From: a virus
Length of the DNA stretch: 49,846 nucleotides
Virus record (IMG/VR): IMGVR_UViG_3300034064_001188
Coordinates: 1-49,846 of that record
Direction: 5' to 3' (one strand)
Below, piece after piece: positions 6,652 through 32,018 of the stretch. Made by a program: the position numbers and the translations under genes. The notes beneath the pieces are model-generated. The model ran no database searches and was not told the origin of the DNA. It saw only the letters and a list, made by a program, of their open reading frames with translations. The stretch's first letter is position 1. The number at the start of each line of letters is the position of its first letter.

Positions 6652-6830
6652 CCCATCCTCCTTTCCTGCTCCTCACGCTCCGCATGGAGGCGAACCCGGT
6701 CGGCCATGGTCTTGGCCTCGCGGAGTCGGCGGCGGTTCCAATAGCGGTGGCCGGGTGGGGTGCCGGTCTTGGATGTCTTACCCATCGACGCCTTGGCGAT
6801 GGAATTACGTAGGGACGACAATGCGCTCAC
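6648..6830 (-). CDS. Small basic protein between recT and the exonuclease
   Basis: Encodes 60 residues, very basic (many R and K) and largely helical. It overlaps both neighbours by 4 nt. No family is recognised. An accessory role in recombination or nucleic-acid binding is inferred from context only. Confidence 0.6.
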   Translation of the reverse strand: MSALSSLRNSIAKASMGKTSKTGTPPGHRYWNRRRLREAKTMADRVRLHAEREEQERRMG

Positions 6831-7651
6831 TTGGAACCTCCAAACTCTTCCCTCAACTGAGGAATCATGGTCAACACGAGTTCCGCCTTGTCATCCGCCA
6901 TGTCGCGGACGGTCTGGCCTTCAGTGATGTAGCCGCGACCGATGAGCCACGGCACGATGTCCTTGCCCTTGATGCCGGCGTCCTTGATGGCGTCGCGTAA
7001 CTTCTCCTGCGGAGTCAACACCACGGTCACGGGAATGGCTTGCGAAACCACGTCACCCTTCTCCTGCGACGGCGTAGCCGGCACGTAATCCCGCACCTCG
7101 TCATCCGTGTGCATGCCGAACGAAAGCTCCGGTGCATAGGCGCGTGTCCAGAACGCGGCGGCACGATACTGGAGCATCTGTTCCGCCATGGTCTTCCACT
7201 TGGAACCGTTGCGTGCGTACCACCCTTCGGCCTTGGCCATGGCGATGGTGACACAGGTGCCGACAAGCTCCTCGCCGGTCTCGCGATCCTTTGCCTTCAC
7301 GCGGCAACCGTAGGAGTCTTCACCTGGCTTACCTTCCCACACGTACCGCAGCGGTGTGAACCGGCCGCACGTGTTGACGGTCGCGATCAGAAACGTGGCG
7401 GACCATGCAGGCTTGCCGTGAATCGGTGTCATCGCCTGCATGACGGCCATGACGGACGCGCCAATGCGATTGGACAGTTCCAACGCGATGAGGATGTTCG
7501 CCTCCCCAGCCTCGCCCCGGTACGCCTCCGGAACGATGGTGGAACGGGACAGTTGCTTCGCCATGGCCATCGCGGAATCGAACGCCTGCGATGATGAAAA
7601 CACGGCGACACCTTGGTCGGGTGCGCGTGCTACGGTGAGTTGATTGCTCAT
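6827..7651 (-). CDS. recT: RecT-family single-strand annealing protein
   Basis: Encodes 274 residues. It shows the RecT layout: an N-terminal helical part (AMAMAKQLSRS), an EANILIALELSNRIGASVMAVMQ-type stretch, the PIHGKPAWSATFLIA segment, a W-containing central core and the QMLQYRAAAFWTRAYAPEL motif. RecT proteins anneal complementary single strands for recombination and replication restart. The start at 7651 lies 9 nt after the -10 hexamer of its promoter with no ribosome site, suggesting a leaderless mRNA. First gene of the recombination operon. Confidence 0.88.
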   Translation of the reverse strand: MSNQLTVARAPDQGVAVFSSSQAFDSAMAMAKQLSRSTIVPEAYRGEAGEANILIALELSNRIGASVMAVMQAMTPIHGKPAWSATFLIATVNTCGRFTPLRYVWEGKPGEDSYGCRVKAKDRETGEELVGTCVTIAMAKAEGWYARNGSKWKTMAEQMLQYRAAAFWTRAYAPELSFGMHTDDEVRDYVPATPSQEKGDVVSQAIPVTVVLTPQEKLRDAIKDAGIKGKDIVPWLIGRGYITEGQTVRDMADDKAELVLTMIPQLREEFGGSK

Positions 7652-26208: not shown

Positions 26209-26310
26209 ATGGATACGCTGAAAGTCATCATCGTGCTGAACGTGGCATGGGTCGCGTTGTGCTGCGTGGGTGTTGGAATCGTTCATTTGGTGGAGCATCT
26301 GAGGAAATGA
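26209..26310 (+). CDS. 33-residue single-span membrane protein
   Basis: Encodes 33 residues: a short polar start, one hydrophobic span (about residues 6-24, VIIVLNVAWVALCCVGVGIV) and a basic end. It begins 1 nt after the methyltransferase stop and overlaps the next start (ATGA), so it is in the coupled cassette. It may anchor cassette proteins to the membrane. The small size makes the call moderate. Confidence 0.55.
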   Translation: MDTLKVIIVLNVAWVALCCVGVGIVHLVEHLRK

Positions 26311-27614
26311 TCCCCGCCATCCTCGCCTGTCCGCACGGCCAGCAAAAAGCCGTGGACGCGCTCGTCGAACACTGCCGAAAGCTCGACGGTGTGGTGCCGA
26401 CCGTCATCCCGATTTCCAAGTCGGAAGACGAGGCGTACATGAAGCGCAATCCCGGAGCGTCGTTTCCCAGCTTGCAGGCCAGCGGATTGCGGTACTGCGC
26501 CAATCGGTTCAAGGGGCAACCGTTTTTCTGGATGGAGCCGGATTCGGTGCCGTTGAAACAGGGATGGTTGAAGACGCTGACGGCGGAGTATGAACGCATC
26601 AAGAAGCCGTTCCTGATTTCATCCGACATGCACCAACCGTTTGACTTGGTTGGAGGCATCGGGTTCTACCCCGGAGACACGCATTGGCTTATCCCGGACA
26701 AGTTTGAACGCGACGGCTGGGACCTGTGGATGGTGCGCCACATCCCGGAACTTATCGGCCGCACGCCGCTGATCCAGCACAGCTACGGCGGATACGACAT
26801 TCGAGGCATTGTCCGGCCGCGCCTGTTCCCGGCAGAAGCGGCATTCGTGCGTCCGGAAACGCTGATATTTCACCGGGACAAATTCCTTGGCCTGACTGGC
26901 GCAGTTCCGAAGACGACGTTCCTGCATTCCGGGGACCTTGGAGACATCATCGCTTGCTTGCCGATCATCAGGCAGCTTGGAGGCGGAAAGCTGTTCATTA
27001 CGGATCACAAACCCGGCCTTCTTCCCGCGATGCGCCCAATGAAAAACCGGATGCACCTGATTGAACCGCTCCTCCGCAAGGTTCCGTACCTGACGGATGT
27101 TGAGTTCACGCCGACACCGCCACGCGTGGACGTGAATTTCATGGATTTCCGCAAGCAGTACAAGCCGACCCGCACGCTGACGGAATCCCAAGCCGCGTAC
27201 CTCGGCATCAATCAGGTCGGCATGGATCCATGGTTGTCGGTGACAAGATCGCCGTTGTCGAAAGGCCGCATCGTGTGCTGCCGGTCGCCTCGCTACCAGA
27301 ACCCGGTGTTTCCGTGGTTGAAAATCGTGAACGCGCACAAGTCGCGCATCCTGTTCGCAGGGCTGGACGAGGAGTACGCGGCGTTTACGTCGAACTTTGG
27401 GCGCGTAGAACGGGCGGTAACGAAGAACCTGTTGGAACTTGCTGAACTTATCGCCGGTTCCGACCTTTTCATCGGAAACCAGAGTTCACCCGGTTGGCTG
27501 GCGATGGCGATGGGGCATCCGATCATTCAGGAAAGCCACGTCAACATCCACGACAGCATGGTGCCAAGACGCAACGCGCAGTACGTTGTGGATGGGCGCA
27601 TCCGGCTTGCCTGA
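26307..27614 (+). CDS. Two-domain glycosyltransferase
   Basis: Encodes 435 residues. The N-terminal half looks GT-A-like, with FFWMEPDSVPLKQGWL (about 73-88) placing an acidic donor-binding motif. The C-terminal half, from about 205, resembles GT9/GT-B folds: SGDLGDIIACLPIIRQLGGG and SDLFIGNQSSPGWLAMAMG near 385-403. This suggests two sugar-transfer steps in one chain. Substrates are unknown. It is the last gene of the sugar cassette before the portal. Confidence 0.72.
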   Translation: MIPAILACPHGQQKAVDALVEHCRKLDGVVPTVIPISKSEDEAYMKRNPGASFPSLQASGLRYCANRFKGQPFFWMEPDSVPLKQGWLKTLTAEYERIKKPFLISSDMHQPFDLVGGIGFYPGDTHWLIPDKFERDGWDLWMVRHIPELIGRTPLIQHSYGGYDIRGIVRPRLFPAEAAFVRPETLIFHRDKFLGLTGAVPKTTFLHSGDLGDIIACLPIIRQLGGGKLFITDHKPGLLPAMRPMKNRMHLIEPLLRKVPYLTDVEFTPTPPRVDVNFMDFRKQYKPTRTLTESQAAYLGINQVGMDPWLSVTRSPLSKGRIVCCRSPRYQNPVFPWLKIVNAHKSRILFAGLDEEYAAFTSNFGRVERAVTKNLLELAELIAGSDLFIGNQSSPGWLAMAMGHPIIQESHVNIHDSMVPRRNAQYVVDGRIRLA

Positions 27615-27636
27615 CTCACCCACCCCGAAGTAACCT
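27607..27636 (+). promoter_or_regulatory. Possible weak leaderless-type promoter before the portal
   Basis: TTGCCT (27607-27612), an 18-bp spacer, TAACCT (27631-27636), and 6 nt to the portal ATG at 27643. No ribosome site is visible. The hexamers match the other leaderless-type promoters only partly. Confidence 0.3.
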
Positions 27637-27642
27637 GCCGCC

Positions 27643-29868
27643 ATGGGATTCAAAGACGCCGGTCAAGTCTGGAGAACGGTCAGTATCATGCTCCAGGCGG
27701 AACAGCCGCGCTCCCGCAACCGGGCGCGAATCGACGCCGTGTTCAACGGGAACCCTCCTTACACCGACGAGGAGGCGAACGACAACCGGATCGAGACCAA
27801 CGTCAACTTCCTCGACGGCACCCGGATCATCAATGGTGCGCGACAGGTGTTCACAAACGCGTTCCAGAAGCCGGACAACTACTTTACGGTAACGCTCGAC
27901 ATCGGCCCGAAGCAAAAGCGGCAACAGTGGGGGAAGATCATCACGCGTGAGATGAACCGCGTCATGAAGCGGTCCACAAAGTACGACGCGACGCTTGAAT
28001 CCCAGTTCGCCGGAACGGTGTTGCACGGCATCGGCGTCGTCACGTGGCTTCGTGACCGCGACTGGTGCCCGTCCGCACGCGGCATTGAGGACATCCTTGT
28101 TCCCAGTCGCACGCTCTGTTCGATGGAGAATTGCGACCACTTCGCGATCCTCACGCAGTTCACGGTTGCCGACCTCGCCAGCATGACGAGCGGCAAGGAC
28201 GTGGACAAGGGGTGGAACATGCCTTTCGTCCGCAGCATCATCGAGTACCTGACAGCTCAGAACCAGATGCAGCAGACGAACAACGACTGGACGTATCAGT
28301 ACCTACCGGAGAAGTGGGAGGAGGATTACAAGGAAAACTCTGGGTACTGGGCGTCCGATGCGGTGCCCACGGTGAAGTGCTGGGACTTCTACTTCAAGGG
28401 CAAGGACGGAAGTTGGAACCGGCGCATCGTCGTGGACCAGTACAGCGGGCAGTTGAACGGGATGAACACGGCGGGTCAGTACCTCTTTGATCCAGGTGAC
28501 CGCTGCTACGGGAAGTCCATCAGTCAGATCATGCACGTCCAGTACGCGGACGGCAGCGTGGTGCCTCCGTTCCGGTATCACTCGGTGCGGTCGCTGGGAT
28601 ACCTGCTTTACGCGGTGTGCCATCTGCAAAACCGGCTTCGGTCAAAGTTCACGGATGCCGTGTTTGAGCAGATGCTGTGGTTCTTCCGTTCCAACTCGGA
28701 TGGCGACGAGGAAGCCATGCGGAAGATTGAGATGCACCACATGGGTGTGATCCCGGATGGGATTTCGTGGGTTCCGCAAGCCGAGCGTCACGTCGTGGAC
28801 CGCGAGTTGCTGGCGTCGGCAATGTCGATGAATCGCCAGACCATGGCGGAGTCCGCAGCGCAGTTCACGCAGGACACGAACGACGGCACTCAGAAGGAAA
28901 TGACCGCGACCGAGGTAATGGCGCGGGTGAACTCGTCGAACCAACTGATGGGATCCATGTTGGTACGCGCCTACCGTCAGCAGGCCGTGCAGTACCGGGA
29001 GATTTGCCGCCGTTTCGCGACCATCGACCATCCCGATTGCGTGAAGTTCCGAGCGAAGTGCGAGGCGCAAGGTGTGGATCCTTCCATCTGGGAAAACCTC
29101 GACGAGTGGAACGTCGATCCTGAAAAGGTCATGGGCAGCGGGAACAAGGCACTCGAAATCGCCCAAGCCGACCGCCTCATGAGCGTTCGACCGCTCCTGT
29201 CACCGGAGGCTCAGGCGGAGGTGACGCATATCTTCATCGAAGCGAACACCGACGATCCTTCGCTGGCGGGTCGGTTGGCACCGATGGAAACCGGAAACCA
29301 GAGCCCCGCCGTGGAACGTGCGACGTTTGCGTGGGGCACGCTGATTTCCGGTCAGCCCATCGTCATCGCCACGCCGATCAATCGGCCCGAGTACATACAG
29401 ACGCTCATCCAGATGCTCAGTGCTGAACTGGAACGCATCAATGCGGCGGGCGGCATGCCGGGGCAACGCGAGGTGTACGGACTCGCCAACGTCGTTACGC
29501 ATTGCGAGGAGCAGATCCAGGCGATTGCCGAGGATCCCGGCCAGGAAGAGAACGTGAAGGTGTTCACCGACGCGCTGACGGCGGCAGGAAACTTCATCAA
29601 GGGTTACATCCAGCGGTTGCAGGAACAGGGCGGAGAGCAGGGTCAGGATCCCGCGATCCAGAAGGAACTCATCGCGGCTCAGGCCAAGGCGGACATCGCC
29701 CGCGAGAACGCAGCGCAGAAGCGCGAGCAGAAGGAAATCGCGTTCAAGCAGAACGAAGCCCGCAAGGATCTCGCAGTGGTGGCCGAAGCGCAGCGTGCGG
29801 GTGCCCGTGTGCAGGCCGAGGTGGCCGCGCAGGACATCCGGACGGCGGCGGACATCACGCGGGATTGA
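27643..29868 (+). CDS. Portal protein
   Basis: Encodes 741 residues. Size, position between terminase and scaffold, and the N-terminal part (residues 1-110, with TNVNFLDGTRIINGARQVFTNAF and a KIITREMNRVMKR helix) fit podovirus head-tail connector portals. A long clip/wing region follows. Residues 640-741 are a highly charged coiled coil (repeated A-Q-K-E-R), compatible with the portal barrel. Twelve copies would form the DNA channel at one capsid vertex. No visible ribosome site precedes its ATG. Confidence 0.85.
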   Translation: MGFKDAGQVWRTVSIMLQAEQPRSRNRARIDAVFNGNPPYTDEEANDNRIETNVNFLDGTRIINGARQVFTNAFQKPDNYFTVTLDIGPKQKRQQWGKIITREMNRVMKRSTKYDATLESQFAGTVLHGIGVVTWLRDRDWCPSARGIEDILVPSRTLCSMENCDHFAILTQFTVADLASMTSGKDVDKGWNMPFVRSIIEYLTAQNQMQQTNNDWTYQYLPEKWEEDYKENSGYWASDAVPTVKCWDFYFKGKDGSWNRRIVVDQYSGQLNGMNTAGQYLFDPGDRCYGKSISQIMHVQYADGSVVPPFRYHSVRSLGYLLYAVCHLQNRLRSKFTDAVFEQMLWFFRSNSDGDEEAMRKIEMHHMGVIPDGISWVPQAERHVVDRELLASAMSMNRQTMAESAAQFTQDTNDGTQKEMTATEVMARVNSSNQLMGSMLVRAYRQQAVQYREICRRFATIDHPDCVKFRAKCEAQGVDPSIWENLDEWNVDPEKVMGSGNKALEIAQADRLMSVRPLLSPEAQAEVTHIFIEANTDDPSLAGRLAPMETGNQSPAVERATFAWGTLISGQPIVIATPINRPEYIQTLIQMLSAELERINAAGGMPGQREVYGLANVVTHCEEQIQAIAEDPGQEENVKVFTDALTAAGNFIKGYIQRLQEQGGEQGQDPAIQKELIAAQAKADIARENAAQKREQKEIAFKQNEARKDLAVVAEAQRAGARVQAEVAAQDIRTAADITRD

Positions 29869-29871
29869 ACC

Positions 29872-30150
29872 ATGACCTCGCCAAAGAAACACTTCCAGTC
29901 CGACAAGGCTCGCCTACGGCAAGCCGAGGACATCATCGCATCGGCGCCGTTTCAGGAGATTGTCCGTACGGCGTTCGCGCAGATGATGAACAACCTTCCG
30001 GTGCCGCAAGACGCCACGAAGGCCATCGCCAACGATTACATGCGCGTCGGTGCGTTGCGGCTCATCTCCGAGTTCGACAACATCGTCTCGCAGGCCGCAG
30101 AGAAGAAGCCCCTTTCGACCGCACTTGAACCCGAAGAACCTCGCAAATGA
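29872..30150 (+). CDS. Small head-associated hypothetical protein
   Basis: Encodes 92 residues, mainly helical (residues 15-70), with a proline/glutamate tail. It lies between portal and scaffold and overlaps the scaffold start by 4 nt, implying a head-assembly role. No family is recognised. Confidence 0.65.
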   Translation: MTSPKKHFQSDKARLRQAEDIIASAPFQEIVRTAFAQMMNNLPVPQDATKAIANDYMRVGALRLISEFDNIVSQAAEKKPLSTALEPEEPRK

Positions 30151-31343
30151 ATCCCGAAGTAGCCGAAGCCCCAGAACACGACATCTACGCTGGGTTGGAT
30201 GAAACGCCAGCCGCAGCGCCGACGCCCACACCTGAACCCGCGCCGGCCGCCGCCAACCCGCAACCGGCACCGGAACCTGTCGCCGCCGCGAAACCAGCGC
30301 CGGTTGAAGACGACTTCGGCCTCGCCGACCTGACGAAGAAACCGGAGCCGGTGAAGAAGGTGGAACCGGCGAAGAAGGCGGAACCCGCAAAACCCACCGA
30401 AGCCTCCAAGGGTGGACTCAAGGAGTTTCGCGAGCAGTACGAGACCACGAAGAAGGAGCGCGACGAACTCGCCGGAAAGCTCGCTGCGCTGGAAAAGGCC
30501 CGCGAGGAAGGCACCCGCGCAGAAGTAGCCAAGGCGGCAAAGGAGTACGAAGCCAAACTCTCCGAAGTCAAAAAGCGCAACGAGGAGTTGGAGACGGAGT
30601 TGAAGTACACCAACTACACACGCTCACCGGAGTACAGCGAGAAGTACCAGAAGCCGCTTGAAAACGCGTGGAAGAATGTCCTTCGCGACATCGACGGGTA
30701 CGAGATCGACACCGGCGACGGAAGCACTCGGCCTGCGTCCGTGGACGACATCAAGCAACTCGTCGGCATGACGGCGCTTCGTGCCGCCAAGGTTGCCAAC
30801 GAACTCTTTGGAGACGCCGCACCTGAAATCCTCGCCCATCGCCGTCGCATCGTGGAACTCACCGAGCAGCGACAAGCTGCCATCGAGGAGTACAAGACTA
30901 AGGGTGCCCAGCGCGAACGCGAGATGCAGTCTCGCCAGAGTCAGCAGGTCAGCCAGGTGATGGAGAAGTTCCACACCGGACTGAAAGCGTACGAGGAAAC
31001 ACACCCGGAAATCTTCGGCCGCGACTCGAAGGACGAGGAGATTCAGAAGGCGTTCGACGCCGGCGACCGATTGGTTTCCGTGGCGTTGAAGGGCGACGGG
31101 TTGAACGATAAGAGCCCGGACGAGTACACTGAATTGCTCACGAAGGCGCAGGCCGCGCTTGCCGCCAGGGCGCGTTCATTCGGTCCTGAACGTATCCGCC
31201 GTATCCGCGCCGAGCAGAAGGTTGCGGAGTTGGAGGAGCGGTTGGGCAAGCTTACGAAGTCAGAGCCGGGTCAAGGCTCTGACGCCGCACGTCGCGACGA
31301 GCCGGTGGATGAAGACATTACGGCGGGGATTGACAGGTTGTGA
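30147..31343 (+). CDS. Probable capsid scaffolding protein
   Basis: Encodes 398 residues. Residues 20-100 are P/A/K/E low complexity. 100-165 and 230-330 are long charged coiled coils. It has few aromatic and cysteine residues and an acidic tail. This composition and position after the portal are typical of scaffolding proteins that template procapsid assembly. The probable capsid gene is not adjacent but lies on the other strand at 38576-37023. Confidence 0.75.
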   Translation: MNPEVAEAPEHDIYAGLDETPAAAPTPTPEPAPAAANPQPAPEPVAAAKPAPVEDDFGLADLTKKPEPVKKVEPAKKAEPAKPTEASKGGLKEFREQYETTKKERDELAGKLAALEKAREEGTRAEVAKAAKEYEAKLSEVKKRNEELETELKYTNYTRSPEYSEKYQKPLENAWKNVLRDIDGYEIDTGDGSTRPASVDDIKQLVGMTALRAAKVANELFGDAAPEILAHRRRIVELTEQRQAAIEEYKTKGAQREREMQSRQSQQVSQVMEKFHTGLKAYEETHPEIFGRDSKDEEIQKAFDAGDRLVSVALKGDGLNDKSPDEYTELLTKAQAALAARARSFGPERIRRIRAEQKVAELEERLGKLTKSEPGQGSDAARRDEPVDEDITAGIDRL

Positions 31344-31365
31344 TTTGTGGGGCAGTGTCATGACA
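31330..31365 (+). promoter_or_regulatory. TTGACA promoter-like element with palindrome
   Basis: TTGACA (31330-31335), a 17-bp spacer, CAGTGT (31353-31358), inside the end of the scaffold gene. TGTCATGACA (31356-31365) overlaps the presumed start site, as would suit an operator. Unlike the other sites, no start codon lies 6-10 nt downstream, so the product could be a leadered or noncoding RNA running toward the tRNA-like element. Confidence 0.4.
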
Positions 31366-31408
31366 TCGGAGCGAGCATTCAGCGGAACCCCTAGCCGGTG
31401 CTCGAAAC

Positions 31409-31576
31409 GTGGTGGACAGGGTTTACCGGGAACGGCCCACTACGGCTCCAGTTTTTTGCTCCCGGTGCGCCGGGGTTACTGAGCCAATCCGGACGCGGGT
31501 TGCCATCAGCCGGGACGGCAGCATTCACTTTCCCACCGCGCAGAAAGCCGAGCCGTGCCATCGTCAAAGACTGCCG
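31409..31576 (+). CDS. Possible small CxxC protein
   Basis: A GTG-started frame of about 55 residues with VFCSRCAGVTEP (a CxxC knuckle) and IRTRVAISRDGSIHF, ending PCHRQRLP. Third positions are fairly G/C-rich and it resembles a small zinc-binding protein, but there is no ribosome site and other frames in 31360-31640 are also open. Low-confidence call in an otherwise unexplained stretch. Confidence 0.3.
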
Positions 31577-31648
31577 TAGTGAATCGGCACGTGGTTGGCT
31601 CCAGAACAACGGTAATCGGCCTCACGGCGTGGCGGGATTGATTTTCAC

Positions 31649-31933
31649 ATGTACACCCACTTCGGCCTACCACTCCCAATCGACGCGCCGTCCAGCATCT
31701 CAAAACTCGGACGCGTCATCCCCGGCGTCTGGCGTTGCGCCAATAGACTCCACGCCGAGGTCCGCACCGTGACCGCGCATCACGCAACCGGCGCATCCTC
31801 ACGCTCCACAGAAATGCGATGGGACACGTCCAGCGGCAGGTTGCTCGACGCCGTGGAAACCGGCTGGGATCTCAAGGTGTGGCTTGGGCATCTACCTGCA
31901 CTTTCCACCCCCGGTAACTCAGTGGCAGAGTAA
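31649..31933 (+). CDS. Hypothetical protein ending within the tRNA-like element
   Basis: Encodes 94 residues with clear C/G third-position bias through the first two thirds. H-, R- and W-containing. No domain is recognised. Its last eight codons and its stop (31931-31933) lie within the tRNA-like element at 31909-31960. No good ribosome site; the leader from 31577 to 31648 shows nothing recognisable. Confidence 0.5.
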   Translation: MYTHFGLPLPIDAPSSISKLGRVIPGVWRCANRLHAEVRTVTAHHATGASSRSTEMRWDTSSGRLLDAVETGWDLKVWLGHLPALSTPGNSVAE

Positions 31934-31969
31934 ACGCGTCGGTTCGATTCCGACCTGGGGAAATGGAAA
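31902..31969 (+). ncRNA. tRNA-like element lacking an anticodon arm
   Basis: The acceptor stem CCCCGG 31909-31914 pairs with CTGGGG 31955-31960 (6 bp, one G-U). TA links to a perfect D-arm: ACTC 31917-31920, loop AGTGGCA, GAGT 31928-31931. Only AAACGC (31932-31937) separates it from a perfect T-arm: GTCGG 31938-31942, loop TTCGATT, CCGAC 31950-31954. The anticodon arm is absent and no CCA is encoded. TTTCCA 31902-31907 can pair with TGGAAA 31964-31969, extending the acceptor helix. It could be a tRNA pseudogene, an attachment-site remnant or a functional tRNA mimic. Confidence 0.65.
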
Positions 31970-31970
31970 A

Positions 31971-31998
31971 CCCCGCTCGGTAGCGATACCGAGCGGGG
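31971..31998. terminator. Strong bidirectional terminator between convergent blocks
   Basis: A perfect 12-bp stem, 31971-31982 with 31987-31998, with a GCGA tetraloop, flanked by AAAA on the left and TT-rich sequence on the right. It separates the rightward head block from the leftward capsid/lysis block ending at 32019. Confidence 0.85.
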
Positions 31999-32018
31999 TT
32001 CGTTGTTTCCAGAGAGTT

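Follow-up and report, generated by a model that had tools for sequence, protein, structure and literature searches.

A tRNA-like phage element without an anticodon arm belongs to a recurring class and may mark a site of transcript processing

The usual explanation of phage 'tRNAs' is codon usage, or the replacement of tRNAs cut by host defences. A tRNA-like element that keeps its acceptor stem and elbow and has no anticodon arm raises another question: for what purpose would a virus carry it? We examined such an element in IMG/VR virus record IMGVR_UViG_3300034064_001188; below, the window is the whole 49,846-nucleotide stretch of DNA that was analysed. The locus has the following features.

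31649-31933, + strand: 94-aa ORF, protein-coding by its substitution pattern, with a divergent tail and a stop codon that run into the element
31902-31907, + strand: TTTCCA, 5' strand of a possible acceptor extension, folding with 31964-31969 and marginal against the null
31908-31962, + strand: anticodon-armless tRNA-like element, tRNA positions 1-73 without 27-43 (sequence; covariance model R1, 52.2 bits, E 6.9e-18)
31908-31914, + strand: 5' strand of the acceptor stem, CCCCCGG, partner of 31955-31961, with a C.A mismatch at 1:72 and G.U at 6:67 (sequence, R1)
31917-31931, + strand: D arm, ACTC-AGTGGCA-GAGT, including A14, G15, G18 and G19 (sequence, R1)
31932-31937, + strand: 6-nt linker AAACGC in lieu of anticodon arm and variable loop, equal to positions 26 and 44-48 if 27-43 alone are removed (sequence, linker lengths of the class)
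31938-31954, + strand: T arm, GTCGG-TTCGATT-CCGAC (sequence, R1)
31955-31962, + strand: 3' strand of the acceptor stem, CTGGGGA, and discriminator A73 (sequence, R1)
31964-31969, + strand: TGGAAA, 3' strand of the possible extension, with an alternative partner TTTCCA at 32006-32011 (folding, null comparison)
31969-32000, + strand: strong terminator-like hairpin directly downstream of the element, found 3' of it

Positions 31902-31969 read TTTCCA-CCCCCGG-TA-ACTC-AGTGGCA-GAGT-AAACGC-GTCGG-TTCGATT-CCGAC-CTGGGGA-A-A-TGGAAA. As a preliminary description had reported, the D arm and T arm pair perfectly, and exactly six nucleotides stand where an anticodon arm with its 7-nt loop and a variable loop would be; no such arm is present in the element. 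The tRNA core residues T8, A14, G15, G18, G19, C48, T54, T55, C56 and A58 are all there. Thus the element has an acceptor stem, a D arm and a T arm with the elbow nucleotides of a tRNA, bar the mismatch at 1:72. The acceptor stem, first described as intact, is present with six of seven pairs, and the word is slightly too strong because 1:72 is C.A and 6:67 is G.U. Likewise, we regard the additional TTTCCA/TGGAAA helix as optional: it can form, but re-pairing the flanks of other elements gives an equally good score in about 3% of cases, and the second TTTCCA at 32006-32011 competes for TGGAAA across the terminator.

The predicted fold of 76 nt equals the described structure, with an energy that by itself is unremarkable (z -1.55). 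ARAGORN, which misses elements of this kind, reported no tRNA in the window; a Rfam scan of the window gave no family above threshold, tmRNA, GOLLD and ROOL included, and the Rfam tRNA model RF00005 reported nothing there even with E up to 5. We built covariance model R1 from 59 non-redundant elements with perfect acceptors, leaving the window element out. R1 nevertheless found that element at 52.2 bits as its sole match in 49.8 kb. A chance hairpin is ruled out by this result, which folding energy alone would not have shown, and the mimicry of elbow and acceptor first noticed in the sequence is real, its stems recurring in other phages.

The order of features, ORF, element and terminator hairpin, bears out the earlier placement of the element at the 3' end of a gene and directly before a strong terminator. 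The 94-aa ORF is a real gene by its substitutions, third positions being most changed and the first 81 codons free of indels; the TAA stop codon of the ORF (31931-31933) sits inside the element, at the border of D stem and linker. The C-terminal tail, where it enters the element, is not common to the relatives L014 and L015. Relatives of the ORF at 82-83% identity are without the tRNA-like element, which is known at the same site in one other, near-identical contig only. In L014 and L015, a block homologous to window positions 31536-31646 precedes the 94-aa ORF by about 0.5-0.9 kb, and this different placement indicates that the region is mosaic. TTTTCCA flanks the terminator hairpin on the - strand, which suggests that the terminator is bidirectional and lies between convergent genes.

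Farther upstream (26247-31343) lie three large rightward ORFs (455, 741 and 398 aa), none of which Pfam or PHROG matches convincingly; L215 and L216, two further phage contigs, encode relatives of the 741-aa ORF at 38-39% identity. A giant structured RNA at 31340-31660 was considered and found unsupported (folding z -0.05). Searches of the phage collection in near mode (L086, L019, L005) and distant mode (L119, window region), as well as a protein search, returned no close named relatives, and the query with L185 matched a capsid gene only.

Pattern scans indicate that the window element is one of many. A first pattern, which joined its D arm and T arm by a short gap, matched 11 viral contigs; a relaxed pattern matched at least 119 contigs, and a stricter one 94 viral contigs and 39 stretches of bacterial genomes. 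About half of these 39 contained N-runs inside apparent ordinary tRNAs and were discarded, and many others were the same prophages. The scans yield about 90 distinct elements, most of which belong to unrelated phage contigs or prophages. Between elements, the acceptor stems are almost wholly different in sequence and retain pairing: most pattern matches have 7/7 acceptor pairs, on which the pattern places no demand and which random sequence would give about once in a thousand. Linkers measure 8 or 9 nt in 65 of 83 elements. Six nucleotides, the number left (26, 44-48) by removal of tRNA positions 27-43 alone, is near the lower limit (the window element, L114, L149/L230), perfect acceptors being rare below six. 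A single strong match was found in each of six of 296 Microbacterium genomes; the five genomes examined each held exactly one short match (55-59 nt), every other match having the 71-74 nt of true tRNAs. At L036:11358-11456, two armless-type D/T-arm units stand in tandem, and their outer acceptor strands may pair with each other.

Pairing in the class bears marks of selection. T-stem pairs are paired in 97.6% of cases in the 59-element alignment, with many double changes; T-stem pairing was not filtered for, the search pattern fixing the two inner pairs and leaving the three outer ones free. The 100% acceptor pairing of the same alignment was not counted as evidence because the training set had been selected for it. 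Instead, homologous loci provide compensatory changes in the acceptor: between L172 and L208, whose flanks are nearly identical, 3:70 changes from G-C to A-U and 4:69 from C-G to A-U, and between the Microbacterium phages L025 and L184, 1:72 changes from C-G to G-C. Absence of stems or compensatory changes in related phages had been named at the outset as grounds for rejecting the element; both are present in many other phages. Furthermore, C48, the Levitt partner of G15, is retained in about 90% of elements, as the predicted elbow-preserving fold would require. Together, these comparisons show that a class of phage tRNA mimics without an anticodon arm exists and is, by its pairing, kept by selection.

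Elements of the class lie between phage genes on the coding strand. With a simple ORF caller, the element shares the strand of both flanking ORFs in 35 cases and is opposite to both in 4. Neighbour families vary widely; genes for late activators (ArpU type), terminases and HNH endonucleases are recognised most often, and no single partner gene for the class was found among them. In Microbacterium phages the order is a strong hairpin, AGCACCA, the element, about 20 nt, a Shine-Dalgarno sequence and ATG. On the 3' side of the 83 elements, A73 (p ~1e-5), C74 (~2e-7) and A76 (~2e-6) are enriched and C75 is at background; U-1 is weakly enriched (p 0.02). CCA is encoded in 10 of 83 armless elements versus 137 of 306 true phage tRNAs in the same loci. 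The non-CCA tails of true phage tRNAs likewise favour CAA.

GOLLD is a giant RNA that forms nanocages. In a Streptococcus prophage (L123), the Rfam GOLLD model matches in full at 6773-7161 and an armless element, at 7165-7223, begins 4 nt past it. We compared nine other Streptococcus GOLLD phages, six of which carry a tRNA or tRNA-like RNA starting 7-11 nt past the modelled GOLLD end. Javan565 has a 73-nt tRNA there, Javan584 and Javan577 an expanded form of 113 nt, Javan636 an RNA of 76 nt, and two S. agalactiae phages a tRNA-Ser. In Javan345 and two pneumococcal phages the slot holds only a decayed remnant with a T arm. The flanks of L123 and Javan565 are nearly identical, with a short linker in L123 where Javan565 has an anticodon arm; the L123 form is therefore the same locus minus that arm. 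What the RNAs of the slot have in common is an acceptor and a T arm. To judge from these loci, the armless element is interchangeable with full or expanded tRNAs beside GOLLD in Streptococcus phages, and a slot filled by armless, full, expanded or decayed tRNAs implies that acceptor and elbow are kept while decoding is dispensable. The 113-nt RNAs of Javan584 (L232:1355-1467) and Javan577 (L233:1356-1468) contain a second T-arm-like hairpin.

A GOLLD or ROOL partner was rejected as a general rule. The family covariance models gave no match to either in the window record, and among 50 records GOLLD occurs in one, that of L123, and ROOL in none, so the GOLLD case may be special. GOLLD was absent from the Lacticaseibacillus genomes searched. 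That GOLLD lies near tRNAs, and in places contains tRNAs or pseudo-tRNAs, is already known (PMC12286853, PMC6582537); the literature searched yielded no mention of an armless form in that position.

Lactobacillus phages show a related arrangement, in which tandem tRNA-like domains have only an acceptor and a T arm in common, some being without a D arm. The domains lie in a noncoding stretch downstream of arpU and alternate with a conserved spacer, TTGTCCAGTTTAGCGACCGGACACAGCTTGCGATGACCCCATCTGACACTGGGAGAGCGAGCA. The GOLLD and ROOL models do not match these stretches, which are possibly an undescribed composite phage RNA:

L217:1575-2130, tandem tRNA-like stretch in iLp84
L218:1585-2160, tandem tRNA-like stretch in A2
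L219:1480-1890, tandem tRNA-like stretch in J-1
L208:2470-3000, tandem tRNA-like stretch in a viral contig

We suggest that the most likely purpose of these recurring imitations is that host tRNA-trimming enzymes cut or cap phage transcripts at them. Host RNase P, whose main requirements are an acceptor and a T arm, would recognise the element in cis as a pre-tRNA, and RNase Z or CCA enzymes likewise; a long phage transcript would be cut or capped there, as punctuation or for 3'-end formation, in the way of mascRNA for MALAT1. In the window, the element would define or shield the 3' terminus of the rightward transcript immediately ahead of the terminator. We give this reading, drawn from sequence comparisons, not quite an even chance. 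Bacterial RNase P cleaves substrates that consist of an acceptor with T stem and T loop, and phage M3 RNA, C4 RNA and mRNAs are among the RNAs that it processes (PMC11143913); in MALAT1 and MEN-beta, tRNA-like structures are the sites of processing by RNase P and RNase Z (PMC4919922). Co-directionality with flanking genes, the tRNA-like 3' tail and the slot beside GOLLD make recognition in cis by tRNA-processing enzymes the better supported reading, and we prefer it because that slot dispenses with decoding and keeps the determinants of processing.

Against processing stand three elements with extended acceptors, the lower frequency of encoded CCA than in true tRNAs, and the restriction of the window element to one near-identical contig. 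The extended acceptors, contiguous helices of 7-11 bp of flanking sequence around the elements at L201:5655-5712, L206:4011-4068 and in L207 (- strand element), look designed against cutting. The case is also weaker for the window than for the class. The element there is mismatched at 1:72; a cut at 31907/31908 would take the stop codon, buried in the element, off the 94-aa ORF; and the extension, if formed, would seal the element, sequester the 5' leader and work against RNase P. The wider claim, that armless mimics punctuate transcripts in many phage lineages, with borrowed host enzymes defining the ends of mRNAs and of giant RNAs such as GOLLD, would let any RNA with an acceptor and elbow fit and make decoding optional. 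We find it plausible, though we would sooner bet against it than for it.

The main rival to processing is a decoy or sponge: once excised, the element would accumulate and tie up an enzyme that binds tRNA and works at the elbow or the acceptor end, for example a tRNA-targeting defence nuclease, a toxin that modifies CCA ends or RNase P itself. We consider this possible and on balance unlikely. Its attraction is that elbow and acceptor are retained while the anticodon that many nucleases cut is gone, in elements strongly associated with viruses. Usually, however, the element is a single copy in an intergenic slot rather than the product of a dedicated strong transcription unit; the slot beside GOLLD accepts real tRNAs in its place, and some elements are sealed within a longer helix.

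Somewhat less probable is an uncleaved cis module, a protein-binding or 3'-stability element in which the tRNA elbow would be a docking site in the mRNA and the window copy perhaps sealed by TTTCCA/TGGAAA. The order of ORF, element and terminator fits such a module, as do the possible extension in the window and the strong ones in L201, L206 and L207. An extended acceptor helix was rejected as a trait of the class, with three clear cases in 83, and the enrichment of A73, C74 and A76 points to a 3' end that is free and processed in most members. For the window element itself, a sealed 3' module is a fair alternative to cleavage. Both functions offered in the preliminary description, decoy and 3' module, are possible ones.

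Lower still we rank a remnant without function, either a tRNA gene in decay or part of an attachment site, whose anticodon arm has been deleted. The L123 element is clearly descended from a tRNA-like ancestor that had the arm, the window element has its one mismatch, and tRNA fragments are common at integration sites (PMC9897764). Yet most members pair at 7/7 acceptor positions though the search did not require it, paired positions covary, homologous loci show compensatory changes, and the linker range is narrow; for the class, functionless decay is strongly disfavoured. A trapped attachment-site fragment, also raised at first, is poorly supported. The window record has no match to the tyrosine integrase family PF00589 (the search being limited to the tyrosine type), and the proposed comparison with host tRNA genes, run for one Corynebacterium prophage element (G052) across the genome of its own host, was negative, returning only universal D/T-arm stretches of at most about 20 nt.

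Weakest, and very improbable, is a mini-tRNA that is charged despite having no anticodon, for instance by AlaRS through G3:U70, and that serves a purpose other than decoding: AlaRS does charge acceptor minihelices and G3:U70 occurs in 7 of 83 elements, but 12 of 306 true phage tRNAs have it too (p 0.15, not significant), the window element has none and CCA is seldom encoded. Alanine identity was likewise rejected, an apparent G3:U70 excess in the first 45 elements (8/45) having been lost against true phage tRNAs.

Returning to processing by host enzymes, the class leads to a prediction about the way in which phage transcripts, and the ends of GOLLD, are matured. A conserved class unable to decode also implies that at least some tRNA-shaped RNAs of phages are kept for their shape alone, and it accounts for some of the tRNAs that annotation of phage genomes leaves undetermined or misses. 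tRNA mimicry is already known; the broad armless phage class and its exchange with tRNAs beside GOLLD appear to be new, no description of the class having been found in the literature searched (open-licence full text, with subscription papers and preprints mostly outside its scope).

Several known systems share parts of this design. The tRNA-like domain of tmRNA has an acceptor and T arm and no ordinary anticodon arm, a likeness to the armless element, which in contrast has a complete D arm and no mRNA-like domain; RF00023 has no match in the window. The tRNA-like domain of the bacterial Y RNA YrlA is also tRNA mimicry without decoding, whereas armless elements are about 58 nt long and usually stand alone, and Rfam found no Y RNA match in the window. 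GOLLD with its tRNAs (RF02032) resembles the class through the L123 element 4 nt downstream, yet the window and 49 of 50 records have no GOLLD match and most armless elements are short intergenic units. M3 RNA and C4 RNA, which the review cited above (PMC11143913) names only as non-tRNA substrates, would be alike, if our proposal holds, as phage RNAs matured by host RNase P. Finally, mascRNA and menRNA, from MALAT1 and MEN-beta, belong to eukaryotic nuclear lncRNAs, whereas the phage elements lose the anticodon arm altogether and their cleavage is only proposed. In both, however, a short tRNA-like structure keeps acceptor and elbow and has no need of decoding, and the phage elements too may end a longer transcript on the same strand: the window element lies between ORF and terminator and the class is co-directional with its flanking ORFs. 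A role in setting ends through RNase P and RNase Z is the likeness that we propose.
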